From: Actinocatenispora rupis
GTDB lineage: Bacteria; Actinomycetota; Actinomycetes; Mycobacteriales; Micromonosporaceae
Assembly: GCF_016861975.1 (NCBI RefSeq)
Contig: NZ_BOMB01000006.1
Span: 1-61,153 of the forward strand
Direction: 5' to 3'
Length of the DNA stretch: 61,153 bases
Shown: positions 1,026-44,371 of the stretch, piece by piece
How positions within the stretch are numbered: the first letter of the stretch is position 1
Layout: each line of letters opens with the position of its first letter
Program-made: the position numbers and the translations under genes
The notes under the pieces: model-generated
Told to the model about the DNA's origin: nothing
Database searches by the model: none
Seen by the model: the letters and a program-made list of their open reading frames with translations, nothing else

Positions 1026-2344
<1,319 letters not shown>

Positions 2345-2351
2345 CGGCTCC

Positions 2352-5703: not shown

Positions 5704-6392
5704 CACGCACCCGCCACCGCAGGAAGCCCAGCCGGGATCCCGTGTTCGGGTATCCGCACAACGCCGCGGGTCATCTGCGCGGTGAACCACGTCATCGCCG
5801 GCTCGCGCGAGGCGCTGCGGTCGATGGAGTGCAGCATGATGCCCAGCTGCTCACTGCGGTTGATCGGCGGGGTGTCGTCCGGGTCGCCGAAGTAGGCGGC
5901 GAATTCTCGGGTACCCAGATACGGCCGTTGGAAGCAGGCGCCGCGGGTGACTCTGCGGCGGAACTGGTCGCGGTAGGCGGCGACCGGTTTGCTGGCGTGG
6001 CCCTGCAGGTGGATGTGGGCATGGATGCGGTAGGCCACGTCCCGCAGGCACACTGCGTTGCGCTGATCGCGATGCGCGGCCGTGTCGACGCGGCGGGCGC
6101 CTCGGGCGGCCTCGGCCAGGCTCGGCAGGTCGCTGGTCTCGTTGCGGCGGATGCGGAACTGGCGGATCGGTTTGAGGACCTCGATCGCCACCACCTGGTA
6201 GCGCATCTCCGGCTTCCAGAACACCGACTCCAGGATGCCCACCGCCGCAGTCGGGGTCGGTACCGGATAGGTGACGCGCTCGACCTTCAATTCGGGACGG
6301 GTGAACAGTGCCGCCTCACCCCACACCTGCATCACCACCGGTGGATGCCCGCCAGCGGCCGGTAGCGGCTGCCCGTCAATCAACGTGGTCAC
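5703..6392 (-). CDS. cas5: CRISPR-associated Cas5c, pre-crRNA endonuclease
   Basis: This 229-residue protein is the subtype I-C Cas5, which takes the place of Cas6, cuts the repeat hairpin and caps the crRNA 5' handle. The family signature is clear in VMQVWGEAALFTRPELKVERVTYPVPTPTAA, followed by the RQFRIRRNET region with basic residues. It starts with GTG at 6392, overlapping the cas3 stop as GTGA; the upstream extension of the open frame is ignored for that reason. The downstream end overlaps cas8c. Confidence 0.95.
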   Translation of the reverse strand: MTTLIDGQPLPAAGGHPPVVMQVWGEAALFTRPELKVERVTYPVPTPTAAVGILESVFWKPEMRYQVVAIEVLKPIRQFRIRRNETSDLPSLAEAARGARRVDTAAHRDQRNAVCLRDVAYRIHAHIHLQGHASKPVAAYRDQFRRRVTRGACFQRPYLGTREFAAYFGDPDDTPPINRSEQLGIMLHSIDRSASREPAMTWFTAQMTRGVVRIPEHGIPAGLPAVAGA

Positions 6393-8704
6393 AACACAAA
6401 CTCCTCCACTTTCGTGTCGACAGACATGCCGGTCGACGCGTCGTACGCGCCGACCCATTCGGCCAGGCCGCCCGGGGCCAACTGCCCAAGGACCGGCCTC
6501 AGTAGCGCGGTCACGCCGGCAGCGCGCAGCGCCGAGGGGTGCAGCGTCGTCGTGTACGGATGCAGCAGCCGCAGATCGTCCCGGGTCGGGTGGGCGCGCA
6601 CCCGCACGATCGCCTCGTGCAGACTGGTGCGGGTCGCCTCGTCGACGGCGGCCTGCGGGGTGACCACCGCCAGGCCGTCGTCGTCGATGAGCCGGAACGC
6701 CGCGCTGCGGTCGCGGCGTCCGCCCTGCTGCGGGCCGTCGGTAACGGTCTCGAACTGCCAGCCGCGGCGCGCCCGTTGGATGCGCTGCCCGACGCTGGCA
6801 GCGTCTTCCAGATTCAGGTTGTCGTAGATCTCGTGGTAGTAGCGGATCAGCGCGGCGGGATCATCGGGTGTCACGCGCGAGTCAGGATCGTCGGGTGCTG
6901 TGCTGTCCGGCCCGCAGTGCCGGCGGGTCGCGGCCAGCAGCATCCGGTAGGTGGGCGGCTGTGAGGCGTCGACCGCCGAGAAGATGACCACCTCGCCGCC
7001 GTCGGCAAGCGTGCCCTCTCGGTCGGCGCGGCCCGCCACCTGAACATGCGAGTCGGCCGGCGCGAACGCCCGCCACACCACCGGGAAATCCACATCCACG
7101 CCGGCTTCGATCAACTGGGTGGCCACCAACCGCACCGGCAACCCGCAACTGAGTCGACGGCGCACCTCGACCAGCACCCGCCGCCGATGCTCCGGGCACA
7201 TCCGGGTCGACAGATGCCACACACTGTCGACGCCCGGCATGCCGGACCACGCATCGAACACGGTGCGGGCGTCTGCTGTCGTGTTGACCACGACCAACAC
7301 CGAGCCGCCCGAGGCCGTCTCGGCCGCCACATCCGCCAGCGTCAGATCCCCCTGCGTACGCCACCGAAACCGGGTGCGTTGGCGGCCGGGCGGCAGCGCG
7401 GCCAGGTCCGGCACGACGTCGGTGGCGGGCAACTGACGGAACGGGCTCAAGTGCCAGAAGTCTGGCTGCGTCGCCGAGCACAACAGCACGGTGACCCCGA
7501 AGTGCTGCACCAGAATCCGCAGCACGTCCAGGATCGGCAGCAGCATCGTCGCCGGCAGCGCCTGCACCTCGTCGAGCACAATCACCGACCGTGCCAACCG
7601 ATGCAGCCGCCGCACCACGGACGGCTTGCGCCCCAACAACGACTCGAACAGCCGGACGAACGTGGTCACCACCACCGGCGCATCCCAGTTCTCCGACGCC
7701 AGCCGCGCCTGCCGTCCGGCGGCGTCCAGATCGACCCCGCTGTGATGCTCCAGCACCACCGGGGCCGGTGCCGCGCCGTCCAACAGGCCACGAAGAACCG
7801 CGGCGTTCTGCTCGGTGATCGTCAGGAACGGCACCGCCATGACCACCCGCCGCAGCCCATGCTGGGCGGCGTGCCGCAACGCGAAACCGGCTGCCCCCAA
7901 CGTCTTGGCGTAGCCGGTCGGCACCCCCAGCCGGAAGATGCCTTGCTCGGACAGGGCCGCATCCATGCAGTGCTGGTAGACCGCCTCCCGCGCCGCATCC
8001 ATCCGCGTCGGCGCGCGGGCCGCCAGATACCTCGCCCGAGCAGCCGCGAAGTGGTCGGCCAGCAGGCAGAAGTCGCTGTCAGGACGCACCCGCGGTGCTT
8101 CCTCATCCGCGAAGTGCGCCGCGGTGTCGAGATGGTCGGCGTCGCACAACGCCGAGAACACCATCCGAACGCCGAGCTCACCGACCAGAGGATCCTCAAC
8201 CCACGCCGGCGGGATCGCGCCCGGCGCGGAATCTGCCAACTCCGGCAGCAGCCGGCGAACCGTCGCCTCGGCCGCAGCCTCGTCGGGGTTCTCCCCCAGC
8301 AGCTTCCCTATCAGCCCCCGCACCCGAGACCCGTCAACGAGGCCGCCATGATGCCCCAGCACGACCGCGGCGATCTTGCCGTACCCAGCAGTGCGGACCA
8401 TCTCCGCACCCAACGCCTTGTGGTCGATCCGCACCGCCCCACCGGCCGCCGCCACCCGAGCGAGCTTGTCCTGCCAGCGATCAAACAGCTTCCCGGCATC
8501 GTGCAGCAGCCCAACCCGGTGAGCAATCGCCGCGCCGTCGAACGGCGCTGCAAACGCACCGGCCATCCCCGCCACGTTCCGCGCATGCTCAACCCACGGC
8601 TGCCACCGCCCGGACCTGCTCTGACTGTGCGCCACCCACTCACGCACGACCCCCGGCCACCTCCCAGATGCGCGCCGAGGGCGCAGACCACGCAGGACTG
8701 CCAC
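6389..8704 (-). CDS. cas3: CRISPR-associated helicase-nuclease Cas3 (HD and DExH domains)
   Basis: The N-terminal HD nuclease shows HRVGLLHDAGK (His68-Asp69), DHK (His95), GHHG (118-119) and CDADH. The SF2 helicase follows with motif I at 260-268, DEVQ at 378-381, SAT at 410-412, and motifs V-VI reading TQLIEAGVDVDFP and QVAGRADREG. Cas3 unwinds and degrades target DNA after Cascade binding. Motif I reads GVPTGYAKT: Ala266 replaces the usual Gly before the catalytic Lys267 (codon GCC). The start is uncertain. GTG at 8704 has a moderate GAGGG site, while GTG at 8647 would remove an Arg-rich, non-family stretch of 19 residues. Confidence 0.95.
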   Translation of the reverse strand: MAVLRGLRPRRASGRWPGVVREWVAHSQSRSGRWQPWVEHARNVAGMAGAFAAPFDGAAIAHRVGLLHDAGKLFDRWQDKLARVAAAGGAVRIDHKALGAEMVRTAGYGKIAAVVLGHHGGLVDGSRVRGLIGKLLGENPDEAAAEATVRRLLPELADSAPGAIPPAWVEDPLVGELGVRMVFSALCDADHLDTAAHFADEEAPRVRPDSDFCLLADHFAAARARYLAARAPTRMDAAREAVYQHCMDAALSEQGIFRLGVPTGYAKTLGAAGFALRHAAQHGLRRVVMAVPFLTITEQNAAVLRGLLDGAAPAPVVLEHHSGVDLDAAGRQARLASENWDAPVVVTTFVRLFESLLGRKPSVVRRLHRLARSVIVLDEVQALPATMLLPILDVLRILVQHFGVTVLLCSATQPDFWHLSPFRQLPATDVVPDLAALPPGRQRTRFRWRTQGDLTLADVAAETASGGSVLVVVNTTADARTVFDAWSGMPGVDSVWHLSTRMCPEHRRRVLVEVRRRLSCGLPVRLVATQLIEAGVDVDFPVVWRAFAPADSHVQVAGRADREGTLADGGEVVIFSAVDASQPPTYRMLLAATRRHCGPDSTAPDDPDSRVTPDDPAALIRYYHEIYDNLNLEDAASVGQRIQRARRGWQFETVTDGPQQGGRRDRSAAFRLIDDDGLAVVTPQAAVDEATRTSLHEAIVRVRAHPTRDDLRLLHPYTTTLHPSALRAAGVTALLRPVLGQLAPGGLAEWVGAYDASTGMSVDTKVEEFVL

Positions 8705-17271: not shown

Positions 17272-17751
17272 TCAGGTGACGGTGGCGGGTGGGTTGAGGA
17301 CGCGACACCAGCGCACTTTCGGCCCAGCAGGGCCGGGCTGGCGGGTGCGTGAGGGTCTGGTCCAAGCGCCGCCGCGGGTGGTGTGTTCGCGGGTCCAGCC
17401 GGCGGCGCGCAGGCTGGTGCCGGGTTCGGTGTCGAGGGTGTAGGTGTGGATCCGTTCGTAGCCAAGGGCAGTGGCTGCACGGGCGGCGGCTTGCAGGAGC
17501 AGGGAGCAGCAGTTGGCGGTTCCGTCGGTGACCAGGCGGGTCACCTCGATGACCCGATCGGGATCGAGGTGCCGGGCGACGGGTCGGCCGCAGATCACCG
17601 CGCCGCACAGCCGTCCGGAACGGTTGACAGCGCCGATCGAGTACCGGTGCCCGACCACTGGCCGGTGATGGCGATGCAGCCGGGCCACGATTTCGTTGGC
17701 GGCAGCCAGGCGCAACGGGACGACCACCAGTCCGCCGCGGCCCCGGCTCAC
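17272..17751 (-). CDS. XF1762-family protein (GNAT-like, mobile-element associated)
   Basis: This 159-residue protein reads PLRLAAANEIVARLHRHHRP and GHRYSIGAVN, the signature of the XF1762 family common in phages and ICEs. The second half (RLVTDGTANCCSLLLQAAARAATALGYERIHTYTL) resembles the acetyl-CoA-binding part of GNAT proteins. Its function is unknown. It begins with GTG at 17751 overlapping the GP88 gene's stop (GTGA), so the two are translationally coupled. Confidence 0.75.
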   Translation of the reverse strand: MSRGRGGLVVVPLRLAAANEIVARLHRHHRPVVGHRYSIGAVNRSGRLCGAVICGRPVARHLDPDRVIEVTRLVTDGTANCCSLLLQAAARAATALGYERIHTYTLDTEPGTSLRAAGWTREHTTRGGAWTRPSRTRQPGPAGPKVRWCRVLNPPATVT

Positions 17752-18536
17752 GTCGGATCCTCGCCCGGAAGTGATCGCTTCTGGATACAGCGAAAGGACC
17801 GCTGCGCGCGGCGAGGACTGCGAGCGCGGCGCTGCTGGTCCTGCTGCTGCCATTGACGGAACGACCGGCCGGCGAGCAGCCGCTGGTGGCCGGGGATGCG
17901 GTTGGCGGTGATGCCAACGGGGGCCGGGCCGGTGACGGCGAGCAGGTCGGAGCCGGCCTGTGAGTGGTGGCCGGCGGCGGTCAGCGCCTCCGTGTCGGGG
18001 AACACGTCGGCAACCCGGTCTGTCTCCGGGTCGAGGAGGTGGTCCTGGGTGCCGCCGTAGGAGTACACCCAGCGAAAGTTGGGCGGCGGGTCCGGTTCCA
18101 CGAGGCGCCGAAAGCGCCGGATCTCCTTGGTGTAGGCGTAGAACCGGACCTGCGGATGGGTGCGGGCCAGGTGCAGCCAGGCGCGGGTGTACGCGTCGCT
18201 GAGAAAGTCCCCGGCGTCGTGGATGCGTACCCACCGGCCCTGCAGCACGGGCAGGTTGAGGTCGGCGGCCATCGCCTGCTGCCAGCCGGGCAGGTCGTCG
18301 AGAACCATCCGCAGGTTGACTTCGTGGCGGGCGCGGACTGCGGGGATGCGGTAGGTGCCGGCCAGGGCGTAGCAGACGTGCCGGCATATCCCGGCCGACG
18401 GGCAGGTGTTGTAGGTGCGGCCGTCGGACAGCCGGCCGGCCCAGGCGGGCAGGGTCCAGTTCCAGATCCCGAGGGGTTTCAGGCGGGAGTTCTGGGTCAG
18501 TAGCCGCGGGCGACGCGGCGAGTGGTGAGCGGTCAT
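17748..18536 (-). CDS. GP88-family phage/mobile-element protein
   Basis: This 262-residue protein has the GP88 pattern LTQNSRLKPLGIWNWTLPAWAG and RTYNTCPSAGICRHVCYALAGTY, with several conserved Cys that may bind an Fe-S cluster or zinc. RWVRIHDAGDFLSDAYTRAWL and FYAYTKEI follow. Proteins like this are frequent in actinophages and ICEs; the activity is not established. AGGAGAA precedes ATG 18536. It overlaps the XF1762 gene downstream. A 15-bp hairpin lies 50 bp upstream. Confidence 0.75.
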   Translation of the reverse strand: MTAHHSPRRPRLLTQNSRLKPLGIWNWTLPAWAGRLSDGRTYNTCPSAGICRHVCYALAGTYRIPAVRARHEVNLRMVLDDLPGWQQAMAADLNLPVLQGRWVRIHDAGDFLSDAYTRAWLHLARTHPQVRFYAYTKEIRRFRRLVEPDPPPNFRWVYSYGGTQDHLLDPETDRVADVFPDTEALTAAGHHSQAGSDLLAVTGPAPVGITANRIPGHQRLLAGRSFRQWQQQDQQRRARSPRRAQRSFRCIQKRSLPGEDPT

Positions 18537-18670: not shown

Positions 18671-18772
18671 CTACCAGTCGAAGGTGGGTAGCGCGTCGAC
18701 CGTGTCGGCGTCCTGATCGAAGAACACCCGGTCGCTGGTCGTGTCCTGGCGGGCGGTGGTGTGGTCGCTCAT
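18671..18772 (-). CDS. Small acidic hypothetical protein, 33 residues
   Basis: The reading frame MSDHTTARQDTTSDRVFFDQ then ends DTVDALPTFDW. Its ATG overlaps the stop of the preceding gene (TGATG at 18770-18774), which makes translation by coupling likely. It is acidic and has no recognisable domain. It is the last gene before the strong hairpin at 18586-18639. Confidence 0.5.
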   Translation of the reverse strand: MSDHTTARQDTTSDRVFFDQDADTVDALPTFDW

Positions 18773-19332
18773 CAGTGCGTGGTCCTCTCCGGATGGCAGG
18801 GGGTGGCGCCGGGCAGGCGTCGGATCAGGAAGCAGTCCGGTGCGGTCGGGTCGTCGTGCTGGTAGTCGTCGACCTGTTCGTCCCAGTGCGCTGGCCGCCC
18901 GCAGTGCCCGCACCGGTGCGGGCCGTCGATGGCGGTGCCGGTGGTGTCGTGCGCGGTGTGGTCATGCCCGGGGTTGGCGCAGACGGCCGGGTCGTCGAGG
19001 GCGGTGACCTCGTAGACCAGGCCGAGGTCGTGGGAGCCGCCGTCGCCGGGAGTGTCACCGCGGACCGATCCGGTGCCGTCCCACGCCGCGTCCGGCGCGC
19101 TGATAGCCGCCAGGCCGGCCAGTTCCTGGAGCGTGGTCGAGTAGCAGGTGTCGCCCTCGTCGTCGAGCAGGACGACGGCGTCATCTTCGGCCTGCTGACG
19201 CTGCTCGGCCAGCCACGCCCACGCCTGCTGCGGGGTGTCGAAGACCGGCGGGTCGTCGTCGACAGGCCGGCAGCCCGGCGTGTGGATCGTCGCGAGGAAC
19301 CGCGTCGTCTGCCGATGTGGGTGTGCGGTCAT
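18772..19332 (-). CDS. Hypothetical protein with CxxC zinc-binding motif
   Basis: This 186-residue protein has an N-terminal part with PPVFDTPQQAWAWLAEQRQQAEDDAVVLLDDEG. A C-terminal HRCGHCGRPAHWDEQ knuckle may bind zinc. I do not recognise the family. ATG 19332 overlaps the upstream stop (ATGA), and its own stop overlaps the 33-residue gene, so three genes are coupled in a row. Confidence 0.7.
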   Translation of the reverse strand: MTAHPHRQTTRFLATIHTPGCRPVDDDPPVFDTPQQAWAWLAEQRQQAEDDAVVLLDDEGDTCYSTTLQELAGLAAISAPDAAWDGTGSVRGDTPGDGGSHDLGLVYEVTALDDPAVCANPGHDHTAHDTTGTAIDGPHRCGHCGRPAHWDEQVDDYQHDDPTAPDCFLIRRLPGATPCHPERTTH

Positions 19333-19775
19333 GGTGTCCACCGCCAGCCTTGGTGGATTCGGCTGCCGCCGTGGTGTCGGGTGAGGTGCGGTCGCGGGAT
19401 CACCTGCTCGGTGTCGGCCTCATACAGCTCCCCACGCTGGTAGGAGCCTCTCGGGCCGGTGATCTGCACGATGAGCCGTGCACGCCCGTCGCGGGGATCG
19501 GCGAGCCGCAGGGTCCGGCAGGCGACCAGGCCGTGCGCGGTGGTGAGGTAGGCCAGCTGCCCGATCGTGTGGGCTGATCGTGGGTCGTAGCCGGGCGGCT
19601 GGTAGCCGGACCGGGCGATCAACTCCCGCAGCCGGTCGCGGAGCGCGAGGCTGGTGCGGAAGTCGCGTGGGCGGCCGGTCTGTTCCAGCTCGTGGATCTG
19701 GGCCCACAGCGTGTCGAGGTCCAGCGGCAGCGAGTCGGGAACGTCTCTGAGGATGGTGATGGTGGTGCGGTGCAC
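19329..19775 (-). CDS. Hypothetical protein, 148 residues
   Basis: It reads ITILRDVPDSLPLDLDTLWAQIHELEQTGR with a helical first half and a beta-rich second half (RARLIVQITGPRGSYQRGELYEADTEQVI). The family is not recognised. It starts with GTG at 19775, behind CGGGAGGC, and 22 bp after a 12-bp hairpin. It is coupled to the next gene by ATGA. Confidence 0.7.
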   Translation of the reverse strand: MHRTTITILRDVPDSLPLDLDTLWAQIHELEQTGRPRDFRTSLALRDRLRELIARSGYQPPGYDPRSAHTIGQLAYLTTAHGLVACRTLRLADPRDGRARLIVQITGPRGSYQRGELYEADTEQVIPRPHLTRHHGGSRIHQGWRWTP

Positions 19776-19856: not shown

Positions 19857-20243
19857 CTACTGCGGTGCGGGTAGGGCGCAGCGGTAGACGCGGAACGGGA
19901 TGGTCGCGTGCACGTCTTTGTGTGCGCGGCGTTGGTCGTGGTGGAAGATCCACACCTCGGCGGCTCGGGTCCGGCCGGTGTCGATCAGGCTGTCGGCGGG
20001 GACCGGCGGGTACAGCGCCCCGGAGAACGACATCCCGTGCCGGCCGAGGTAGAAGCTGCCGCCGCTGCTGGTTTGGGCCTGGTCGGGTTCGCCGTCGGGT
20101 AGCCGCCACAGGTGGCTGATCCGGCGGACGGTGCCGTCGGTGAACTCGACGACGTCGCCGTCGCGTGGCCCGGTGACGGCGGCGAGATGGGCGAGGCGCT
20201 GGGCGATGATCAGTTGGTCGCGCTGGTCCAGGTGCTCGTTCAT
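19857..20243 (-). CDS. Hypothetical protein, 128 residues
   Basis: The protein reads MNEHLDQRDQLIIAQRLAHL, then GDVVEFTDGTVRRISHLWRL and GSFYLGRHGMSFSGALYPPVP. It looks like a small beta-rich protein; the FxxGxxRRISH strand pair suggests an SH3-like barrel, but no family is assigned. ATG 20243 lies 16 bp after the stop of the Cys-motif gene at 20260, so they are probably co-transcribed. Confidence 0.7.
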   Translation of the reverse strand: MNEHLDQRDQLIIAQRLAHLAAVTGPRDGDVVEFTDGTVRRISHLWRLPDGEPDQAQTSSGGSFYLGRHGMSFSGALYPPVPADSLIDTGRTRAAEVWIFHHDQRRAHKDVHATIPFRVYRCALPAPQ

Positions 20244-20259: not shown

Positions 20260-21063
20260 TCAGTGGGTGTGGTGGGTGAGGTAGGTGGGCGCCCAGTGCC
20301 AGCGCCGCCCGTCGGGCCCGGTGTGGTGGGCGGTGTCCTGGCAGCGTCCGTCCGGGCCGAGGGCCGCGAGGGTGGACGGCCGGTCGGGCACCCAGCGGCC
20401 GGGTCCGGCGTGGGTGTCGAGGCTGGCGAAGCGGCGGCAGTCGCAGCCGCCGCGGCGGCAGGGATGGCCGAGGTCGTCGAGATGGTGGTCGTCGAACCGG
20501 TGCCAACACGTGCACATCCGGGTTTCCGCCGCGGCCCAGTCCTGCGCGGTCTGCCGGCGCCGGCTGCCCGGCCTGGCCAGCTCCTGCAGCAGTTCGACGA
20601 CCTCGTCCCTCCCGGTCGGCGCTGTACCGGGCCGGTAGACCTGCACCTGCATCGCGGCGGCATCCGCTGCGGGGAGCGCGTCGTACCAGGTGCCGGACAG
20701 GTCGGTGGCTATCACGAGCCGGGCACGATCGGCGTAGCCGACGGCCAGCCACCACCCGAGCAGCCGCCCCGACAGCCCGTTCAGGAGCACCTCGCGGGTG
20801 GTGGAGCCGCCAGGGTGCGGCAGCACGGTGTTGAGGATGCGACCGAACCGCGGTGAGCGCTCCAGGAACCACGCACGGTCGGGAACGGGCAGTTGCTCGG
20901 AGACGACCTCGCCGGGCGTCGGCGTGGTCGTTGTTCCGATGCGCGGTACCGCGTCGCAGGGTATCTGCTGGTAGAGGTGCCGCAGCGCGAGCACCATGCA
21001 CCTCTGGTCACCGTCGCTGCCGGACTCGGAGCAGCCGCTGGTGGTGTGATCGCGGTTGGACAT
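20260..21063 (-). CDS. Unknown Cys-motif protein, paralogue B flanking the amidoligase pair
   Basis: This 267-residue protein has the blocks VLALRHLYQQIPCDAVPRIG, RSPRFGRILNTVLP, VIATDLSGTWYDALP, RMCTCWHRF...CRRGGCDCRRF and RRWHWAPTYLTHH. The same blocks occur in the same order in the protein at 23443-24261, so the two are divergent paralogues. The CxCWH and CxxxxCDC elements may bind zinc. The AAAGGAC site supports ATG 21063. It sits directly after the glutamine amidotransferase gene with a hairpin between. The function is unknown. Confidence 0.75.
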   Translation of the reverse strand: MSNRDHTTSGCSESGSDGDQRCMVLALRHLYQQIPCDAVPRIGTTTTPTPGEVVSEQLPVPDRAWFLERSPRFGRILNTVLPHPGGSTTREVLLNGLSGRLLGWWLAVGYADRARLVIATDLSGTWYDALPAADAAAMQVQVYRPGTAPTGRDEVVELLQELARPGSRRRQTAQDWAAAETRMCTCWHRFDDHHLDDLGHPCRRGGCDCRRFASLDTHAGPGRWVPDRPSTLAALGPDGRCQDTAHHTGPDGRRWHWAPTYLTHHTH

Positions 21064-21108
21064 GGATGGTTGTCCTTTCTCGTCGCCCGCGGTCCGCGGG
21101 CCGGGTTG

Positions 21109-21137
21109 TGCCCCAGCCGGCGAGGCCGGCTGGGGCA
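21109..21137. repeat. Intercistronic hairpin with 3-nt loop
   Basis: TGCCCCAGCCGGC (21109-21121) and GCCGGCTGGGGCA (21125-21137) form a perfect 13-bp stem, between the amidotransferase stop (21178) and the start at 21063. Confidence 0.6.
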
Positions 21138-21177
21138 TCACAGGACGATCTGCCGGGCCAGCCCCGGGAGACCGGGG

Positions 21178-21981
21178 TCAGCGCGTGGTGGCGTGGTGGG
21201 GCCGTGGGCAGTCACTGCGCGGCCCTGCCGTGTTCAGGCAGGACGGCCCAGGCGGCGGCGGGGCGGCGGGGCGGTCGTCTTCCCAGCAGCAGCAGGAGTC
21301 CGGGCCGCAGAAGCACTCCAGGCACAGGCCACACTCGCCGCAGATCAGCGTTTCGGCGTCGAGTGGACCGCCGCACACGCACCGCTCGACATCGACGGGG
21401 CCGGTGTCGAGGCAGAACCCGAGGTCGCGGAACCCGTCGTTGGAGTACCAGGCCCCGCCGTGCCACACGCCGGACTGCTCGTTGAGCAGGTAGGCGCGCT
21501 GCGGGTAGCGGGGGTCGACGGTGAGGATCACCATCTTGTTGCCAGGACCCATCCACTTCTCCACGCGACGGCGGGTACCGGCCCGATACAGCGGACCGAG
21601 GCTGGGCAGAAACTCCTCTGCGGCGATGCGGGAGTCGCTGCGCCGGTCCCGGCGGCCGGGTCGCACGGGGGTGGGCAGGATCCCGTTGTGGGCCAGCACG
21701 GTGCGCCGGTCGCCGCCGACCGCAAACGGGTGGCAGTTGGCGCGGCTGATGGTGCCGTGGGTGGCCAGCCGGGAGTGAAACAGCGCCGGCGCGTCCGGGT
21801 GCGCCCGCCGGGCCGCGGCGAACCATTCCACGAGCAGATCGGGGTCGCGGTGACGGTCGAGCAGAATCCGGCCGCGGTCCGCCAAGGCGTAGCCGTGCCC
21901 GTCCGGGTTGAACAAGGCGCCGGCGTGCAGCGCGTCGAGGTCTGGGGCCACACCGGGCGGGAGGAAGGTGATCAGGCACAT
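21178..21981 (-). CDS. Class II glutamine amidotransferase-like protein with Cys-rich tail
   Basis: This 267-residue protein starts MCLITFLPPG. After Met removal Cys2 would be the N-terminal nucleophile of an Ntn hydrolase. The family motifs follow in order: HSRLATHGTISRANCHPF (Arg71), LAHNGIL (Asn99-Gly100) and RSDSR (Asp116). They fit a domain that frees ammonia from glutamine. The last 50 residues carry about 13 Cys (CVCGG, CGECGLCLECFCG, CCC), a zinc ribbon-like tail not usual in the family. ATG 21981 overlaps the amidoligase stop, so the two proteins are made together and probably act together. Confidence 0.8.
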   Translation of the reverse strand: MCLITFLPPGVAPDLDALHAGALFNPDGHGYALADRGRILLDRHRDPDLLVEWFAAARRAHPDAPALFHSRLATHGTISRANCHPFAVGGDRRTVLAHNGILPTPVRPGRRDRRSDSRIAAEEFLPSLGPLYRAGTRRRVEKWMGPGNKMVILTVDPRYPQRAYLLNEQSGVWHGGAWYSNDGFRDLGFCLDTGPVDVERCVCGGPLDAETLICGECGLCLECFCGPDSCCCWEDDRPAAPPPPGPSCLNTAGPRSDCPRPHHATTR

Positions 21982-23189
21982 CACGCGACCCCGATCTCGC
22001 GGGTCAGCGGCGCGTAGGTGTCGTGCTGGGCGACCCAGTCGGCGAAGGCCGACCAGCCCCAGCCGTCGCGGCGGGCGATGTCGGCGACGCTGAGGTGACG
22101 GGTGTATTCCACCGAGGCGTCGGCGAAGCCGAGGACCGCCTGCACGTGCTGCACCTCCAGCGAGGAGGCGAACACCCGCAACTCGAACGTGTCCTCATGG
22201 CAGGTGTTTATCGCCGCGTACTTGCCCGACCATGCCTTGCCCTTGGCCAAGCGGCCGGTGTCACGGCGCGCATCGTCGGTGAACGGGGCGTAGGAGGTGC
22301 TGTCGCGGCGCGCCAGGCCGATGACCTCCGGCCGGTTGCGGTGGATGAGTTTCATCCACCGGTAGATGTGGGCCGGGCCGGCGAACCCTGCGCGGGACAG
22401 GTGCACGTGCAGGCCGGCGCTCGGGCAGTGCCGGTCAGCGCCTTTCTCGGCCAGTGCCGGTAGCAGGTGCCACGGGAATTTGGTGATGGCCCACTGGTAG
22501 GACATCGGGTGGGTGACCAGTTCGAAGCCCTCGACGCTGCCGTCACGTTTCAGCCAGGCCAGCCCGTCCAGGGTCTGGGTGCACAGCCGGGCGCAGTCGT
22601 ACTGCAACTCCTCGGCGATGCCGATCTCCAGTTCCATGCCCAGATACAGCGGACCGTCGCCATGGAAGGCCAGCAGCGGCAGGTAGTCACAGTGGTGGAC
22701 CATGCCGTCCAGCGAGTCGCACGGGCAGTCGTTGCCTTCCAGCCGCCACGTGTTGCAGCCCTCGCACCGCCACGCGCAGTCCGCGCACACCGACAGGTCG
22801 TCGGCGTAGATGACGTTCTGGTCGGCGATCCGGGCATCGCAGCGTTCACAGGTGGGGCAGTCGCAGTCGTTGCTGCTGCGGTTCCAGGTGCAGCAGTCGT
22901 CGCAGTAGCTGCCGCAGTCGCGGCACACGATCACGTCGTCGACTCTGATCTGGTTGTCTGGCGCCATGCGGGTGTTGCAGTCCGCGCATCGGGGGCAGCC
23001 GCAGTCGATGCCGTCGACGTGCCAGGTGTGGCAGTCGTTGCAGAAGCTGGCGCAGTCGGTGCACAGCAGCTCGTCGTCGACCTCGATCTGGTTGCCGTCG
23101 TCGATCGGCGTGCCGCAGCTGTCGCAGTCGCCGGGCGAGGTCGTGGCGTCGAGCTCCACGGTCGGGTGGGTGATGGTGGGGTGGGTCAT
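21981..23189 (-). CDS. Putative amidoligase with three N-terminal Cys-rich repeats
   Basis: This 402-residue protein has a C-terminal half resembling the Amidoligase_2 family of glutamine synthetase-like ligases: LYLGMELEIG (Glu186, Glu188), KRDGSVEGFELVTHP and HCPSAGLHVHLSR (His261, His263). Residues 22-157 contain three ~46-residue repeats, each with about nine Cys spaced CxxC...CxxC...CxxC...CxCxxC, likely zinc ribbons for target binding. Such ligases join amines to carboxylates using ATP, and the coupled amidotransferase could supply ammonia. A GAAAGG site precedes ATG 23189. The true substrate is unknown. Confidence 0.8.
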   Translation of the reverse strand: MTHPTITHPTVELDATTSPGDCDSCGTPIDDGNQIEVDDELLCTDCASFCNDCHTWHVDGIDCGCPRCADCNTRMAPDNQIRVDDVIVCRDCGSYCDDCCTWNRSSNDCDCPTCERCDARIADQNVIYADDLSVCADCAWRCEGCNTWRLEGNDCPCDSLDGMVHHCDYLPLLAFHGDGPLYLGMELEIGIAEELQYDCARLCTQTLDGLAWLKRDGSVEGFELVTHPMSYQWAITKFPWHLLPALAEKGADRHCPSAGLHVHLSRAGFAGPAHIYRWMKLIHRNRPEVIGLARRDSTSYAPFTDDARRDTGRLAKGKAWSGKYAAINTCHEDTFELRVFASSLEVQHVQAVLGFADASVEYTRHLSVADIARRDGWGWSAFADWVAQHDTYAPLTREIGVA

Positions 23190-23442
23190 GGGTGGTGGCA
23201 CCTTTCAGCAGGTGCACCGGTGAGACCCCCTACGCCGGCCCCTCCCCCGGGCTGGCGGTGGGTGCTCACCAGCGCAAGGAGGACAGGACAGGGAAGGTCC
23301 GGTCAGGAACCGGAGGGGAGAATCGTGGCCAGCGACAGGGCCGACGCACTGCGCCCTGCGATACCGCGGTGGCCGGGCCGGGCCGTGGCAGGCGTGCGCG
23401 ACCGGGTGCTATGAGACGGCGGGCGTCAGGCGCCGGCGGGGC

Positions 23443-24261
23443 TCAGACGCGGAACTGGTTGGCGTGGTGGGTAAGAAACTCCGGCGCCCAGTGCCACCGC
23501 ACTCCGCTGGGACCGGTGTGGTGCTCGGCGGTGTCGCAGGTTCCGGCCACGCCCGACACGGCCAGCGACAGCTCGGTGTCGAGGACCCAGCGGCCGGGCA
23601 TCGTGGGGTCCTCGATGCCCCAGAACCCGGCGCAGTCGCACCCGTCGACGCCGCAGCGGTGGGGCTGGTCGAGGCCGTGTTCGACGTAGGGGTGCCAGCA
23701 GCCGCACATCCGGCTGTCGGATGCCGCCAGCGCCGTGGGGGTCCGCGGCGTGAGGCTGTGCGGTGCGCGAAGCTCGGTCAGCACGGCGACGATCGGTTCG
23801 ACGCCGGTCGGGGCGGATGTGGGATGCACGCCCACGACCGGGAACGGGCCGTCGGGGTTGGGCAGGGCGTGGTACCAACGGCCGTCGAGGTCGGTTGCCA
23901 CGACGCGCTTCTGCCCGTCGTCGACGGTGGCGGCGGCCCACCAGGCCAGGACCGGGCCTGCGAGCTGGCGGACGAACAGGTCCCGACAGGTGGCGGTGCC
24001 TGCCACGATCATCGTGTTCAGGTAGACCGCGAAGCGCTGCGGTGACAGGTACTCCCACTCGGCGGCGTTGATCGGCATCGTCTGGCAGTCGACGCCCAGG
24101 ACGTCGTCGGAGTCCTTCTGCAGCGCGACCGCTCCGATCCGCAGCTGCTCGTCGTCCGGGACGGTGCCGTACAGCTGGTGCATCGCCAGCAGGATCAACG
24201 CGACGGCCGGAACGTCTGCGGGGATCGGGTCCTGCTGGGTGTGGCTGTTGTGGAGGGTCAT
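23443..24261 (-). CDS. Unknown Cys-motif protein, paralogue A flanking the amidoligase pair
   Basis: This 272-residue protein reads ILLAMHQLYGTVPDDEQLRIG, LSPQRFAVYLNTM, VVATDLDGRWYHALP, RMCGCWHPYVEHGL...CGVDGCDC and VRWHWAPEFLTHH, each matching a block in the protein at 20260-21063. It lies upstream of the amidoligase, so the pair of enzymes is bracketed by this family. The shared N-terminal region looks like an all-helical domain. AAAGGACTC precedes ATG 24261. The 250-bp gap to the amidoligase (23190-23442) shows no gene. Confidence 0.75.
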   Translation of the reverse strand: MTLHNSHTQQDPIPADVPAVALILLAMHQLYGTVPDDEQLRIGAVALQKDSDDVLGVDCQTMPINAAEWEYLSPQRFAVYLNTMIVAGTATCRDLFVRQLAGPVLAWWAAATVDDGQKRVVATDLDGRWYHALPNPDGPFPVVGVHPTSAPTGVEPIVAVLTELRAPHSLTPRTPTALAASDSRMCGCWHPYVEHGLDQPHRCGVDGCDCAGFWGIEDPTMPGRWVLDTELSLAVSGVAGTCDTAEHHTGPSGVRWHWAPEFLTHHANQFRV

Positions 24262-24449: not shown

Positions 24450-25337
24450 TCAGCCGCCCGACGTGTTTGCGCGTCCGGTCGCGTGGGGGCAGCCGTCGTG
24501 GGGACGCTGGCAGAAGTGCCAGCCGAGCAGCGTGATGCCGCCGTCGAGGTCGGAGGCGGCCACGATCTGGCGGGCCAGGTGGCTGAACCGTGCGGCGGTG
24601 CCCGGCAGGTCAGGGATGGCCAGCAGGTCGCCACGGTTGTGCAGCCACGCCGGGATGCGTCGGGCGGCCTTGGTCTTGCGGCGGGTCGTCCACTCCGCGG
24701 CAGCGTCGGTGAGGGTGGCCAGGCTGACCAGACCGAACAGCAGGTGGAGGACCTGTGGTTGGTCGGCGAGGTGCGGCGGGCGCACCGCACGGACGGCGTG
24801 CGCGTGGTCCAGGATGTGTTCGTTCAGCATCACGCCGGGTTGTGTCGGCGAGTGCGGCACGGTGCGATAGTTGTCGCGGGGAAGGCGGACCGCGTACCAG
24901 GCCGGCGCGGCCTGCCCGGCGCGGGCGGCGACACCGTCCTCGGCACCGCGGCCGTGGCACCAGCAGGACCGGTCGGTGCAGCGGCGCCGGTCGGGGTGTT
25001 TGTGGTGGGTGTCCATCGCCCCGGACACCATCGGGCACGCCGCACGGGTGTAGTCGAAGCAGCCCGGGTGCAGGCCAGGTTCGATGACCCGGCCGGCGCG
25101 GAGGTCAGCGGCCCGGGCCAGGACGATCACCTCCCCGCCGAGGCGCCCACCGCACACCCCACACAGCCCGTCGGCGAGGCAGCGCCGCAGCGGTGGGCCG
25201 TCGACGATCCCGAACGCGGGCCGTCCGGTGCGGTGATGTGGCGAGATGTAGGGGACGACGAGCCCGCTGTGGCGGGGCCGTGCGCCCAACTCCGGCGCCA
25301 TGCTCTGCCCGCCGTGCGGGCAGGTGTGCTCAGACAT
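24450..25337 (-). CDS. Hypothetical Cys/His-rich protein, 295 residues
   Basis: The first half is Cys-rich: HTCPHGGQSM, CGVCGGRLGGEVIVLARAA, GCFDYTRAAC and RRCTDRSCWCHG. This suggests two or more zinc sites. The second half reads NEHILDHAHAVRAVRPPHLADQP and WLHNRGDLLAIPDLPG, mostly helical. The family is not recognised. ATG 25337 follows AAAGGAG and a 15-bp hairpin. Confidence 0.7.
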   Translation of the reverse strand: MSEHTCPHGGQSMAPELGARPRHSGLVVPYISPHHRTGRPAFGIVDGPPLRRCLADGLCGVCGGRLGGEVIVLARAADLRAGRVIEPGLHPGCFDYTRAACPMVSGAMDTHHKHPDRRRCTDRSCWCHGRGAEDGVAARAGQAAPAWYAVRLPRDNYRTVPHSPTQPGVMLNEHILDHAHAVRAVRPPHLADQPQVLHLLFGLVSLATLTDAAAEWTTRRKTKAARRIPAWLHNRGDLLAIPDLPGTAARFSHLARQIVAASDLDGGITLLGWHFCQRPHDGCPHATGRANTSGG

Positions 25338-30544: not shown

Positions 30545-31291
30545 TCAGTCAGCGGCGCGGCGCAGCTGAACCATCCAGTCCTTGCCGGCCAGGCGGTCGA
30601 TGTGGCTGTTGGCCTGCTGCAGGTACTCCATCCGGTGATCGAACCGGTCGGAGCGCGGGTACAGGAACGTGCCGTCGAGCGTGATCACCTCGTCGCCCGG
30701 CACCGCTGCCATCACCTGCCACCTCGTGTAGGTGTCGGCGTTGGTCTGCAGCAACGGCAGGTTCTCCTCATCGAGGGTGACCTGTCGTCGCGGGTCGATG
30801 TTGGCCAGTCGCATGGCGACCACCCGGGGCTGCATCTCGTACTCGCGCACCAGCGCGTCCTGCGGCAGGTTCTTGCCGTGACGGCGGTCGCGGATCTGCG
30901 ACAGCGTCAACGCTGTCGGAGTCCCGGCCACCACCTGCTGCCAGTAGGCGTAGTCCCACACCGCCCTGTCTTGGGCAACTGCCCGCATCCGGCTGATCCC
31001 GGCGAGCAGATCGACCTTCCGGCCACCCGCGCACCACGAGGTGCGGGTGGTTGTCCGTACCCGGGCAAGGACCCGGTCCGGGCGGCGCAGGATCCTGGCG
31101 CAGACCCCGCGGGGCGGGACCTGGAACACCGGGCTCCAGCCCGTTGCCCATTCGTGGATTGCCGTGTGCACGGCGCGGTTAAGGCTGGTCCAGGTGGGCC
31201 GGTCGCTGCCGGGCAGCAGCACCGTGACGGTGCGGGCCTGGTAGCTGGGGCCAACTGGGGTGGACGGTGGGCACACCGTCAGGGTGGGCAT
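30545..31291 (-). CDS. Hypothetical protein, 248 residues, first gene of the cargo run
   Basis: It reads RTVTVLLPGSDRPTWTSLNRAVHTAIHEWATGW, LLAGISRMRAVAQDRAVWDYAYWQQVVAGTPTALTLSQIRDRRHG and ITLDGTFLYPRSDRFDHRMEYL. The middle is helical, with conserved-looking Trp and Tyr. The family is not recognised. A strong AAGGAGG site precedes ATG 31291. Confidence 0.65.
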   Translation of the reverse strand: MPTLTVCPPSTPVGPSYQARTVTVLLPGSDRPTWTSLNRAVHTAIHEWATGWSPVFQVPPRGVCARILRRPDRVLARVRTTTRTSWCAGGRKVDLLAGISRMRAVAQDRAVWDYAYWQQVVAGTPTALTLSQIRDRRHGKNLPQDALVREYEMQPRVVAMRLANIDPRRQVTLDEENLPLLQTNADTYTRWQVMAAVPGDEVITLDGTFLYPRSDRFDHRMEYLQQANSHIDRLAGKDWMVQLRRAAD

Positions 31292-36600: not shown

Positions 36601-37713
36601 TCAGGCCAGGCCGGGGTTGAGGGGGCCGATCAGGTCGGCCGTGTGGGGCAGCTCGCCGATGGGCAGTCGTGCGTCGGGTCCGCCGTGTACCTGCCACATG
36701 GCCTCGGCGGGGTGGTGGGTGGCGGTCGGGCGGTTGCAGTGGCGGTGGGCGGTGGCGACGATGACGTCGCGGCCGATGCTGGTGGTGGCGAGCCGGTCGT
36801 GGAGGTGTTGTTCGCGGGTCGCGTTGGGCAGCCAGAACAGCACCGGCCAGCTGGGTCCGCCGGCGTCGGCGAGACGCTGGTAGCCGTCCAGTTTCGCGAT
36901 CAGCCGGGCGAGGGGGCGTTCGGTGCCGGTGTCGTGTTCGAGGAAGAACCCGACCGGCCCCGCGGGTCCGGTCCAGACGCCGTGTCCGTCGGGGCGGATC
37001 CGTTCGGCGAACGCGCGGCGGGTCCGCGGCTCCGACCACCACCGTGACAGCCGGCCCGTCTCGGGGGTGTGGCGGGCGTGGCCGGTCAGGTCGGCGAAGA
37101 ACTGGTTGACGCCGACCAGATGCGCCAGTCGGGGGCTGGCGGCGAGCCGGTCACGGCGACGCGCCACCGTCGACGGGGCCGGCATATCGCGGTCGTCGGC
37201 GGCGGCGACCAGCCGCGCGCCGAGCACACCGAGGGTCCAGTGGTTGACGCCGCGGGTGCCGGTGGCCGGGTTGTGGGGGCGGAACGCGTCGAGCAGCAGC
37301 AGGGCGCGGAGTCGGGCGAGGCGCTGTTTGGCGGTTGATGGTGAGCCGAACAGCATGGTGGTGATCTGGGCGGTGGTCAGGGTTCCGTGTTCGGACAGCA
37401 GGTTCAGCAGCACCCGGTCCCGGTCGGTGACCGACCCGATCACCCCGAACACGCTCAACGGCCTGGCAGCAGGCTGAACGGTTGCCTGGCCCCCCGGGCG
37501 GTCCCCCGACAGGGGGAGTCGCGTTTGTATTCGGCCGGAAACATGCGCGCTGACCTGCGGTGTTAGCCGTTTGTTGGCGGCCAGGCTGCGACGGGGGGTA
37601 CGGCAGGGGGTAAGGCGGGGGGTCGGGCAGGGGGTGGGGCGGAGGGGGTCTGCAGCCCTCCGATCGGTGCGGGGGTTTCGGGTGAGGGCCTTGAGGCGGT
37701 GGAACGGATTCAT
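36601..37713 (-). CDS. Replic_Relax-family protein (replication-relaxation)
   Basis: This 370-residue protein has a low-complexity Pro/Arg-rich N-terminus (to ~residue 85). A winged HTH follows (DRVLLNLLSEHGTLTTAQITTMLFGSPSTAKQRLARLRAL), then HWTLGVLGARLVAA, HLVGVNQFFADL, and a C-terminal core with GFFLEHDTGTERPLARLIAKLDGYQRL. This matches PF13814 proteins found on Gram-positive mobile elements. It may serve in replication or as part of the relaxosome. ATG 37713 overlaps the VirD4-like stop (ATGA); a later start is possible. Confidence 0.8.
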   Translation of the reverse strand: MNPFHRLKALTRNPRTDRRAADPLRPTPCPTPRLTPCRTPRRSLAANKRLTPQVSAHVSGRIQTRLPLSGDRPGGQATVQPAARPLSVFGVIGSVTDRDRVLLNLLSEHGTLTTAQITTMLFGSPSTAKQRLARLRALLLLDAFRPHNPATGTRGVNHWTLGVLGARLVAAADDRDMPAPSTVARRRDRLAASPRLAHLVGVNQFFADLTGHARHTPETGRLSRWWSEPRTRRAFAERIRPDGHGVWTGPAGPVGFFLEHDTGTERPLARLIAKLDGYQRLADAGGPSWPVLFWLPNATREQHLHDRLATTSIGRDVIVATAHRHCNRPTATHHPAEAMWQVHGGPDARLPIGELPHTADLIGPLNPGLA

Positions 37714-40145
37714 GACGACTCCTTCGGTCGGGGGCAACGGCGCCGGGCGGATGCTCGGGCCAGCCGGCTGATCGCACTGGGCGCCGCGGCGGTCTGCTCG
37801 GCCCGCAGGGAACTGGATCGCCGGATGTCGTCGGCGGCGCCGACAACGGGCTTTGGTGGTGCGGTGTGAAGGCTGAACGCGGCGGTCTGCCGGTTGTCGA
37901 CCATCAGCCGGGCCGCGGCGGTGTAGGCGTCCAGGTGCGACAGGTCGTGCTGGTCGAGTTCCGGGAGGGTGTGCCGGGACAGGATCCGGGCGTCCTCGGG
38001 CGAGCACGCGAAGATGATCTTGTTGCGGGCGTTGGCCGAGATCGCCGACTCCACCTCCGCGGGCAGCTGCGCCAAGTCCTGGTGAGCCAAGGTCAGCGAC
38101 AGGTGGTAGCCGCGGGCCTCGGCCAACATGGAGTCCACGGAGTTGGGCAGGGTGAGGAAGTTCTGACACTCGTCCAGGTAGGCCGAGCAGTCCCGGCGGC
38201 GTTCTTCGGGACGGTCGATGCGGGCGGTGGCCGCCTGCCACGTCTGGGCCAACAGGAAGCTGCCGAGTAGCCGGCAGGTGTCCTCCCCCAGCGTGCCTTT
38301 CGGCAGCCGCGCGAGCACGATCCCGCCATGGTCGAGGACCTTGCGCATGTCGAGGCTGGAGCGTGGCTGGCCGAGCGTGCGGCGCGGGAAGTCCCGCAAC
38401 AGGACGGCGCGCAGGCGGGCCAGGACGGGGCCGATGATCTGGGCGCGGACCGCGTCGCCCATTGACTCGTACCAGGTCCAGAACCCGCCCAGCCCGTCCG
38501 GGTCGTCCAGCTCGGCGGTCAGCTGCGCCCGGAACTGTTTGTCCTGCAGCAGAGGCGGCACCAACGTCAACGTCGCGTTCGCATGCCGCAGCAGCGTCAG
38601 ACACGCCACCCGCAGCACGTCGTCGATCCGCGGGCCCCAGTGCCGTTGGAAGATCTTGCCGAAGATGGAGCAGACGTTGTCGACGACCAGGTCGTGGTCG
38701 TCCCCGTCGAGCGGGTTGATCACCGGGGTGTGGTCCTGCTCCGGATCCACCAGCCACACCCGATCCGCAGTCGAGGCCGGGAGCCGGTCGAGGATGTCGG
38801 TGACCAGATCGCCCTTCGGATCCACGACCACGACGGCGCGGTGGGCGGCGACGTCGTCGAGGATCATGTTGGTCAGCAGGGTCGACTTGCCGGAGCCGGT
38901 GGCGCCGAGCATGTGCACGTGCTGCCGGGCGTCCGCCGCGGTCAACGCGACCGGATGCCCACCGGCCGCCGCGACACCGAGGCGTTTGGTGTTGCGGCCG
39001 CCGGAGACGATCTGCACCGGGGCGGGAGCGGTCTTCGCCCGGGCCCGGTCCAGCCCGGGCACGGCGAGATCGCGTGGCAGTGCGGCGATCGCGGACAGTT
39101 CCTCGGCCGACAGCAGGCTTCCGGCCAGGAGTCGCCGTGAGGCCAGGGCGGCGGCGGGGCGGTGCAGGCGCCGGCGCCGCAGATGATTGCGGGCCGTGTA
39201 GACCGCCGACGCCGCAGCCATCCCTTGCGCGATCGTCCGCAGCCGCGCCCGGACCGCCGGCGATGGCCGGCCCTGGCTGCCGCGGCTGGGGCGGGTGGCC
39301 ACGGCGTAGCGGATCGCGGTCTGCCACTGCGGCTGCGTCGCCTTGTCCATCGCCGCGCGAGCCTCCCGCTCCCGCCACGGATCCGCCTGCGCAGACGCTC
39401 GCTGGTGCGGCTTCGGCGTCGGGCCGGGCGTCGCCAGATCCAGCAGACCCGACACCACGCCACGTGTGCGTCGCCCGGCGCGCAGTGCTGCCGCGTCGCG
39501 GCGCAGCCGGGCGTGTTGGCGCGGCGTGGCCGGCCGGGCCAGGATCTGCACGCAGGCCACATCGGTGCCGCGCAGCCCGGTCGCGGCGGAGATCAACGGC
39601 CGCAACGGATCCGCCGTGTGCGCGGTGTTCAGGGGATACAGCGCGGGCAATGCCGGAGCCAAGGCCCCACCGGTCGCCCACGCCTCGTCCGGAATCGGGG
39701 CGGTGTCCTCGGCCGGGGTGCAGGACGCGCCCGGCCAGGCCGCCATGACCGCGGCCTGCACGGCGCGCACCGGCACCCGGGCCGGGATCCACAAGCCGAT
39801 CGACAGGGCACGGCCATCCCAGCGGTACTCCAGCCCGACGTGCGGGATGCCGAACAGTAGCCGCCGCCACGCCGGCGGGGTCAGGACCCCGGCCAGCGTC
39901 GCCCACAGCTGGCCGACGCCCGCCGGCTCGACCTCCGGGGGTGGCAGGATCTCCAGCCGCTGCCCGCTGCGGCACCAGCGGGCCTGCCGCACCCCACGCA
40001 CGGTAGGACGGGCGACGGTTGCGGCAATGAGTGCGGCGACGGCGACCGCGATCAGCGCGGTGTGGTGGTGTGCGAGAAGCTGACCGAGCTGGGAGAGATG
40101 CGCGTACGGGCCGGGCTGGTGCGCGAAAAGCGGAAGGGCGATCAT
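37710..40145 (-). CDS. VirD4/TraG-type conjugative coupling ATPase
   Basis: This 811-residue protein has an N-terminal membrane segment (TALIAVAVAALIAATVA, residues ~29-45), a long variable domain, Walker A GATGSGKS (414-421), VVVVDPKGDLVTDIL, and the Walker B-like CSAYLDECQNFL. AHQDLAQLP and IIFACSPEDARILS follow, typical of TraG/TraD coupling proteins. It should pump DNA into the type IV channel. It is coupled by ATGA overlaps to the VirB4 gene upstream and the Replic_Relax gene downstream. Confidence 0.92.
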   Translation of the reverse strand: MIALPLFAHQPGPYAHLSQLGQLLAHHHTALIAVAVAALIAATVARPTVRGVRQARWCRSGQRLEILPPPEVEPAGVGQLWATLAGVLTPPAWRRLLFGIPHVGLEYRWDGRALSIGLWIPARVPVRAVQAAVMAAWPGASCTPAEDTAPIPDEAWATGGALAPALPALYPLNTAHTADPLRPLISAATGLRGTDVACVQILARPATPRQHARLRRDAAALRAGRRTRGVVSGLLDLATPGPTPKPHQRASAQADPWREREARAAMDKATQPQWQTAIRYAVATRPSRGSQGRPSPAVRARLRTIAQGMAAASAVYTARNHLRRRRLHRPAAALASRRLLAGSLLSAEELSAIAALPRDLAVPGLDRARAKTAPAPVQIVSGGRNTKRLGVAAAGGHPVALTAADARQHVHMLGATGSGKSTLLTNMILDDVAAHRAVVVVDPKGDLVTDILDRLPASTADRVWLVDPEQDHTPVINPLDGDDHDLVVDNVCSIFGKIFQRHWGPRIDDVLRVACLTLLRHANATLTLVPPLLQDKQFRAQLTAELDDPDGLGGFWTWYESMGDAVRAQIIGPVLARLRAVLLRDFPRRTLGQPRSSLDMRKVLDHGGIVLARLPKGTLGEDTCRLLGSFLLAQTWQAATARIDRPEERRRDCSAYLDECQNFLTLPNSVDSMLAEARGYHLSLTLAHQDLAQLPAEVESAISANARNKIIFACSPEDARILSRHTLPELDQHDLSHLDAYTAAARLMVDNRQTAAFSLHTAPPKPVVGAADDIRRSSSLRAEQTAAAPSAISRLARASARRRCPRPKESS

Positions 40146-43942: not shown

Positions 43943-44371
43943 CTACGGGTGCTCGCCGGTGATGGATTCCAGGACCGTCAGCAGCAGCGGCGCGATCAGC
44001 GCCAGCGCGTAGCCGATCAGCGCCGACTTAAGCGCGGACTTGGCGCGTTCGACCTCGCCCGGGTCGCCGCCGGCGGTCAGATACCGCACCCCACCCAAGA
44101 CCAGGAACAGGGTCGCGATCGAGCCGAGGATGGCCATGATCCACAGCCGGGCGCGGCTGATGATCGCGCTCAACGAGTTCGCTGCGAGGACCGGCACAGC
44201 CAGCGGGTCGGCGTGCACGTGGCCGCTCGATGCGGCCAGCTGAGGCGCCGCCGCGGGGTGGGCGACGACCCCGGTTGCGGCGAGGGTGACGGCCGCGCGG
44301 GCACTGGCGGCGGTGACCTGTAGTGATGGTTCGAGCAGTGGCAGCAGGGTGCCGAGATGGGTGCTGATCAT
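43943..44371 (-). CDS. VirB2/pilin-like small membrane protein
   Basis: This 142-residue protein has a cleavable-looking hydrophobic start and two membrane helices (LWIMAILGSIATLFLVLGGVRYL, LKSALIGYALALIAPLLLTVLESI). They are joined by TAGGDPGEVERAKSA, the arrangement of VirB2/TrbC pilins in Gram-positive ICEs. It is the first gene of the T4SS operon. ATG 44371 is the chosen start; a longer frame upstream lacks family support. Confidence 0.82.
   Translation of the reverse strand: MISTHLGTLLPLLEPSLQVTAASARAAVTLAATGVVAHPAAAPQLAASSGHVHADPLAVPVLAANSLSAIISRARLWIMAILGSIATLFLVLGGVRYLTAGGDPGEVERAKSALKSALIGYALALIAPLLLTVLESITGEHP

Follow-up and report, generated by a model that had tools for sequence, protein, structure and literature searches.

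A putative two-subunit glutamine-dependent amidating enzyme with zinc modules in Actinocatenispora rupis

Positions 1 to 61,153 of contig NZ_BOMB01000006.1 of Actinocatenispora rupis (assembly GCF_016861975.1), analysed as one stretch and referred to below as the window, contain at 21178-23201 two adjoining genes that are best explained, with somewhat better than even confidence, as encoding a two-subunit glutamine-dependent amidating enzyme. Its predicted subunits are a COOH-NH2 ligase and a class II glutamine amidotransferase, and two related proteins that bracket the pair would lie outside the enzyme. This reading draws on sequence comparison and on a structure model of the ligase. The features concerned are the following:

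21981..23201, - strand: COOH-NH2 ligase (Amidoligase_2 / GS-GCS fold) whose N-terminus bears three LIM-like Cys repeats; assigned from translation, profile and model
21178..21981, - strand: stand-alone class II glutamine amidotransferase with a Cys-rich tail, assigned from translation, profiles and kept residues
21979..21983, - strand: TGATG stop/start overlap of the ligase and amidotransferase genes, seen in the sequence and suggestive of translational coupling
23443..24261, - strand: paralogue 1, genus-restricted, with a C-terminal CxCWH...H...C...CxC motif, judged to be separate cargo
20260..21063, - strand: paralogue 2 (P0003), genus-restricted, judged to be separate cargo

The four open reading frames (ORFs), which a preliminary description of this DNA had joined into one system, were all recovered at these coordinates on the - strand, and the TGATG overlap consists, as described, of the stop codon of the ligase gene and the start codon of the amidotransferase gene.

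Pairing of the ligase and amidotransferase genes

Comparison across cellular and viral DNA indicates that the ligase and the amidotransferase are a real unit, as the preliminary description had held, and that their genes stand in fixed order. Genomes were sampled from the family (300) and from the order (397), the window genome being counted in both, and genes were called with a simple codon-usage caller, the start positions of which may be off. The family sample held 14 amidoligase genes in 13 genomes, that of the window included, and 13 of these genes had the amidotransferase directly downstream. Six genomes of the order sample, besides that of the window, contributed seven complete amidoligase genes and one partial one, and the amidotransferase accompanied six of the seven, among them a gene of G341 (contig C15) but not that of G311. 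A scan of viral contigs found 496 stretches encoding a ligase relative; the viral sets consisted of the best 80 of 496 and the best 80 of 264 loci, and pairing was counted over the 80 ligase loci. These contained 81 amidoligase ORFs, of which 79 were followed by an amidotransferase, 78 of them within 60 bases. The two exceptions were a ligase at a contig end (L136) and a run-together ORF (L128, 2446-4026), in which the ligase continues in frame into an amidotransferase that misses its first residues, including Cys2; the latter is probably a deletion or an assembly fault and not a working fusion. The amidotransferase was also present with the ligase on all three mycobacterial plasmids and in phage Marvin. 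No match to it was found on three Clostridioides plasmids carrying a weaker ligase match, as would be expected if these are more distant amidoligases. The window pair has the Marvin-type arrangement, i.e. both genes in the same order and directly adjacent, and the pair is taken to be cargo of mobile elements (phages, plasmids and integrative and conjugative elements, ICEs).

The junction of the two genes was surveyed in 32 ligase rows from cellular genomes, plasmids and Marvin. In six rows an amidotransferase start was lacking, namely the two pieces of the second gene of genome G070, G311, the partial second copy of G558, L236 and L238, although BLAST does detect an amidotransferase in the last two (two ORFs in L236). 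Among the remaining 26 pairs, the amidotransferase started 13 nt inside the ligase gene in 19, 10 nt inside in two and 1 nt inside in two (the window and L046); three pairs had gaps of 40-79 nt. The frequency of the 13-base overlap therefore implies translational coupling of ligase and amidotransferase through the stop/start overlap. Pairwise distances of the two proteins were strongly correlated as well. Over 104 pairs, made up of 78 viral pairs (IMG/VR) and the 26 others, the Mantel r was 0.93 (best of 999 permutations 0.12), a value raised artificially by the division into viral and cellular sequences; the 26 non-IMG/VR pairs, which form the fairer set, gave an r of 0.79 (best of 999 permutations 0.38). 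Finally, three ligase/amidotransferase pairs stand in tandem in Nocardia jiangxiensis NBRC 101359 (L028, 4833-11319), and a short contig of Nocardia pseudovaccinii carries two tandem pairs, the first at the contig edge.

Active sites and fold of the two subunits

The amidotransferase starts with Met-Cys and has a Cys-rich tail, in agreement with the preliminary description, and its residue pattern indicates that it keeps a class II active site (N-terminal Cys, Arg, Asn-Gly, Asp). The class II assignment is made because relatives match profiles and the residues are kept. Compared with GATase_4, the window protein reached an E-value of 9e-5 and 22 bits (cut-off 23), and 38 of the 41 aligned members matched this family at E <= 0.01; the amidotransferase profile itself matched GlmS and PurF chains. 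Cys2, R71, T74, G76 and G100 were present in all 104 pairs, N99 in 103 and D116 in 102, the other two being gaps. Since Cys2 belonged to the search pattern for the 26 genome, plasmid and Marvin pairs, its independent count is that of the 78 viral pairs, all of which have Cys in this column (in 71 of them it is residue 2 of the ORF as called). In the tail, C203, C214, C217, C220, C223 and C232 were kept in 98 to 100 of the 104 pairs, the remainder being mostly gaps.

The ligase is identified as a distant Amidoligase_2 / glutamine synthetase (GS)-fold enzyme, as its relatives match PF12224, the model finds fold matches and the residues are kept. Alone, the window protein scored 16.7 bits against PF12224 (cut-off 22; E 0.0068, Pfam) and thus stayed below the threshold, but 42 of 43 aligned proteins, comprising the window, Nocardia and viral sequences, matched this family at E <= 0.01 (best 1.2e-11), and the fold agrees, so that the Amidoligase_2-like identity given in the preliminary description was retained. 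PHROG 22302 matches the window ligase at 1.1e-33. Its structure model (predicted local distance difference test, pLDDT, 84.9) retrieved YbdK (1tt4) as the top Foldseek match (E 1.4e-5), further matches being 1r8g, Dop, GmaS (gamma-glutamylmethylamide synthetase), PafA and GS. Ranks 1 to 16 belonged throughout to the GS/GCS/PafA superfamily (E 1.4e-5 to 2.8e-2), followed by LIM domains. Twelve residues (E190, E192, K218, D220, E227, H231, H265, H267, R299, N332, E340 and R342) were invariant wherever aligned over the 104 pairs (0-2 gaps per position); their acid, His and Arg members are presumed to be catalytic on the basis of fold motifs rather than of an alignment to a solved ligase. The window genome (G000) contains a second Amidoligase_2 domain on contig C43 (7716-7925; L001), situated in an open frame of 6759 residues and unlike the window ligase.

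Zinc modules

The three Cys-rich repeats attributed to the ligase are present at about residues 26-69, 72-115 and 118-161. Their resemblance to LIM domains is faint, as the N-terminus of the window ligase matched PF00412 at an E-value of 0.84; LIM chains were found by profile at 7e-4, possibly helped by Cys-rich composition, and by weak structural matches at 0.03 (Foldseek). In the 24 of the 26 pairs that were measurable, between 0 and 14 CxxC motifs precede the ligase domain. Sequence identity was 29% in the zinc region (18% with Cys-Cys matches set aside) and 31% in the amidotransferase tail (21%), compared with 52% in the ligase domain and 55% in the amidotransferase, over 252 comparisons of 23 sequences (L003, L004 and L029_131 being excluded from the 26 pairs and the zinc region being ended 25 residues ahead of the ligase motif). 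Within the triple array of N. jiangxiensis, the zinc regions share 15-20% outside Cys and the catalytic parts 52-66%. This variation fits a variable reader on a constant core. The earlier proposal that the repeats choose the target is thus plausible, given that repeat number varies and that divergence is far above that of the catalytic core.

Bracketing paralogues

The two flanking proteins are indeed paralogous (39% identity over 249 amino acids, E 3e-55), as had been described, and look like members of a genus-limited family expanding within this ICE lineage. The family occurs in two of the four genomes of the genus, that of the window having two copies and G070 five, and all seven copies share the CxCWH...H...C...CxC motif. 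Beyond the genus, only matches of about 20 bits were obtained in 300 genomes of the family and 298 of the order; those in G062, G366, G486 and G542 (the last three with E-values of 4e-4 to 1e-3 and about 20 bits) were treated as chance. A model of paralogue P0004, built from two sequences, had a pLDDT of 46.1 and a best Foldseek E-value of 0.23. Residues 177-213 of P0003 (20260-21063, - strand), with the zinc-like C-terminal motif, weakly match the small phage family phrog_17060 (E 0.0071).

According to the preliminary description, the paralogues could serve the enzyme as target, carrier or partner in a four-protein system. Their adjacency in the window speaks for this, as do three paralogues within about 9 kb downstream of the amidoligase/amidotransferase pair on G070 contig C84. 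Elsewhere among the loci examined, pair and paralogues occur apart: G070 contig C6 (L042) carries two paralogues and no amidoligase was found there by a genome-wide search, 11 of the 13 amidoligase-bearing genomes of the family sample are without paralogues, a pattern scan of viral contigs found none, and phage and plasmid records held no P0004 relatives. Moreover, both G070 elements place the paralogues near relatives of 17748-18536 and 18772-19341, and C84 also near a relative of 19857-20243. Relatives of 24450-25337 and of 30545-31291 (each at 12 of 21 loci) accompany the pair more often than the paralogues do; the 21 loci examined omit L029 and L041 and include L042, which has no pair. The paralogues were judged to stand outside the system because they are confined to the genus, occur twice on an element without the pair and are missing from most ligase genomes; they are probably separate cargo. 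The four-protein system is thereby largely refuted and very improbable. Of the two findings that the preliminary description had named as fatal to it, one was obtained, in that the four genes do not travel together, whereas the ligase stays within Amidoligase_2.

Proteins encoded near the paralogues include a GP88-family protein (17748-18536, - strand; PF17338, E 4.7e-55), which shares about 76% identity with the copies present on the two G070 elements, and the protein of 24450-25337 (- strand), which is Cys/His-rich and unrecognised.

Mobile element and viral neighbourhoods

The element around the pair looks ICE-like, as judged from transfer and integrase-like genes found in a Pfam scan; no tRNA was found within the window. 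The genes concerned are:

36601-37452: Replic_Relax
37710-40145: VirD4-like
40142-41962: VirB4/TraG-like
41959-42915: PrgI
42912-43931: TrbL-like
43943-44371: type IV secretion system (T4SS) pilin
59336-60778: tyrosine integrase

Further genes in the window are type I-C-like CRISPR-Cas genes at its left end (1316-8647, - strand; Cas1, Cas7, Csd1 and Cas3-like), a type II-like N6/N4 DNA methyltransferase that adjoins the transfer genes (46787-47707, + strand) and two neighbouring GAF-ANTAR proteins toward the integrase end (56271-57796, - strand). None of the four proteins discussed above had a match in PADLOC (2023) at E <= 0.001, so that there is no link to a defence system listed there.

Around the viral relatives, the recurrent neighbours look like ordinary phage genes. 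Clusters present at 119, 74 and 60 of 158 loci had WhiB-like, transglycosylase-like and terminase representatives, respectively, each label resting on one scanned representative (8 representatives were scanned among the 22 largest clusters); a cluster at 72 loci and several smaller ones gave no match. The 158 loci stem from two scans sharing some contigs and are not all independent. The frequency of the WhiB-like cluster points to actinophages.

Comparison with known systems

Mycobacteriophage Marvin offers a close likeness, as its gp105/gp106 belong to the same two families, in the same order and with Cys motifs on both proteins (34% identity over 300 amino acids for the ligase and 38% over 238 for the amidotransferase). 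The Marvin pair differs in being a phage pair, in having a gap of 79 bases in place of an overlap and in its short zinc stretch, with 7 Cys ahead of the ligase domain. The podoviral cassette of phiEco32, LUZ24, tf and RIO-1 likewise combines a PF12224 amidoligase with a class II amidotransferase, according to the accessible portions of its descriptions (PMC3890496, PMC5498523), but also includes a further COOH-NH2 ligase together with an ATP-grasp enzyme and a GGCT/AIG2 protein. No such additional gene was recognised beside the window pair in a Pfam scan that covered 38 proteins of the window, a subset of its ORFs. The Pup ligase PafA and the depupylase Dop share the ligase fold in the structure search. 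They act on protein or Pup carboxylates, are not known to have an amidotransferase partner and use Pup rather than ammonia. GlmS and PurF, which were matched by profile, have a class II glutaminase that supplies ammonia, as does asparagine synthetase B (AsnB); the synthase part of these three enzymes has another fold and is usually located in the same chain.

Proposed reaction and target

The simplest reading of a partnership between a stand-alone class II glutaminase and an ATP-dependent carboxylate ligase is that of an amidating enzyme, and ammonia-dependent amidation of some target is likely from sequence and model. The amidotransferase, the motifs of which are intact, would hydrolyse glutamine at Cys2 and pass the ammonia to the ligase, which would activate a carboxylate with ATP, like its fold relatives, and form the amide. 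The N-terminal LIM-like zinc repeats may select the target, the zinc-binding amidotransferase tail may help to dock the subunits, and the stop-start overlap would provide both subunits in a fixed ratio. Most likely, the pair would benefit the mobile element by masking acidic groups on some component of the host or of a competitor.

Several observations weigh against this reading. Taken singly, the window ligase and amidotransferase are both under the Pfam cut-offs, the fold matches of the ligase have low TM-scores (about 0.3), and His75 of the amidotransferase is not strict (93 of 104). The second ligase copy of G070 is the one in the family sample that lacks a downstream amidotransferase, the ligase of G311 is solitary, with no amidotransferase in 18 kb, and the amidotransferase on G341 contig C15 is broken into two ORFs, so that this copy may be dead. 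Amidoligases are also reported without an amidotransferase, beside AIG2/GGCT, in the parts available of PMC3485107 and PMC5513430. As to the zinc modules, CxxC motifs before the ligase are absent from L050, L029_131 (near a contig start) and two viral pairs, and L043 has three. Furthermore, zinc loops usually diverge fast, so that divergence alone is no proof of target choice; fast loop divergence could look the same, the comparison being one without a neutral control.

The fold relatives of the ligase act on small molecules and on proteins. If amidation is granted, a protein target comes close to an even chance, a peptidoglycan stem peptide is a serious candidate of lesser weight, and a small molecule or other target is clearly less probable. 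A possible though tentative sub-case is that D-Glu or meso-diaminopimelic acid (meso-DAP) carboxylates of wall precursors are amidated, by which superinfection or a second conjugation would be blocked. Actinobacterial hosts often have meso-DAP walls, an M23 peptidase gene occurs at nine of the 21 loci, and the 74-locus viral cluster with the transglycosylase-like representative lies near the pair; lytic-enzyme genes are, however, ordinary parts of ICEs and phages. Peptidoglycan modification has been proposed in print for the podoviral amidoligase cassettes (PMC5498523; PMC10580990, citing Iyer 2009), at least in the text available. Against it, the second ligase, ATP-grasp enzyme and GGCT protein of those cassettes were not seen in the Pfam scan of 38 window proteins, and a cell-wall precursor would need no LIM-like recognition domain. 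Given the smaller gene set and the variability of the zinc modules, a protein is considered no less likely a target than peptidoglycan.

That the enzyme makes an amide metabolite, either a secondary metabolite or a product of nitrogen metabolism, is improbable, even though YbdK is the best fold match of the ligase. A small-molecule role was suggested for Marvin, as cited in PMC10580990, and a related phage gene set has been read in terms of nitrogen metabolism (PMC10945688), as far as the accessible text of both goes. Variable zinc modules on both subunits suit a macromolecular target better, and no biosynthetic genes were recognised among the 38 window proteins scanned. A speculative, and on balance unlikely, extension of the amidating-enzyme reading is a retargetable protein-amidation machine, in which a constant ammonia-transfer core would carry diversified zinc-repeat readers, tandem duplication would cover several targets (as in the three Nocardia pairs), and phages and ICEs would use it to neutralise acidic residues in proteins of the host or of rivals.

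Novelty and significance

The preliminary description had considered ICE cargo of this form to be undescribed, which stands for the ICE-borne form and not for the pair as such. Database records already annotate the pair in Marvin-type phages and mycobacterial plasmids, and it is discussed in the available portions of PMC10580990 and PMC5498523. There, related phage cassettes are read as peptidoglycan modification against superinfection (PMC5498523; PMC10580990, citing Iyer 2009 and the Marvin paper), and OM43 phages are listed as carrying amidoligase and amidotransferase families too (PMC10580990). The Clostridium difficile island Tn6164 has an amidoligase beside an AIG2/GGCT gene, with no mention of an amidotransferase in the part available (PMC3485107). 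The ICE-borne form, the 13-base overlap, the zinc-module variation and the tandem arrays were not met in the accessible text of the amidoligase literature searched, although Iyer 2009 may mention some of them. The amidoligase/amidotransferase pair itself is known, and its ICE-borne zinc-repeat form is judged to be new.

The ligase is frequent in viral DNA, yet no measured activity for such an amidoligase/amidotransferase pair was met in the available text of the literature on related pairs. A testable prediction follows from the conservation of the overlap and of both active sites, together with the fast divergence of the zinc modules: the pair should use glutamine to amidate a target that the N-terminus selects. 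The ICE and Nocardia versions would offer natural sets of readers for comparison. If the target were a protein, mobile elements would, through the pair, exert post-translational control of an unfamiliar kind.

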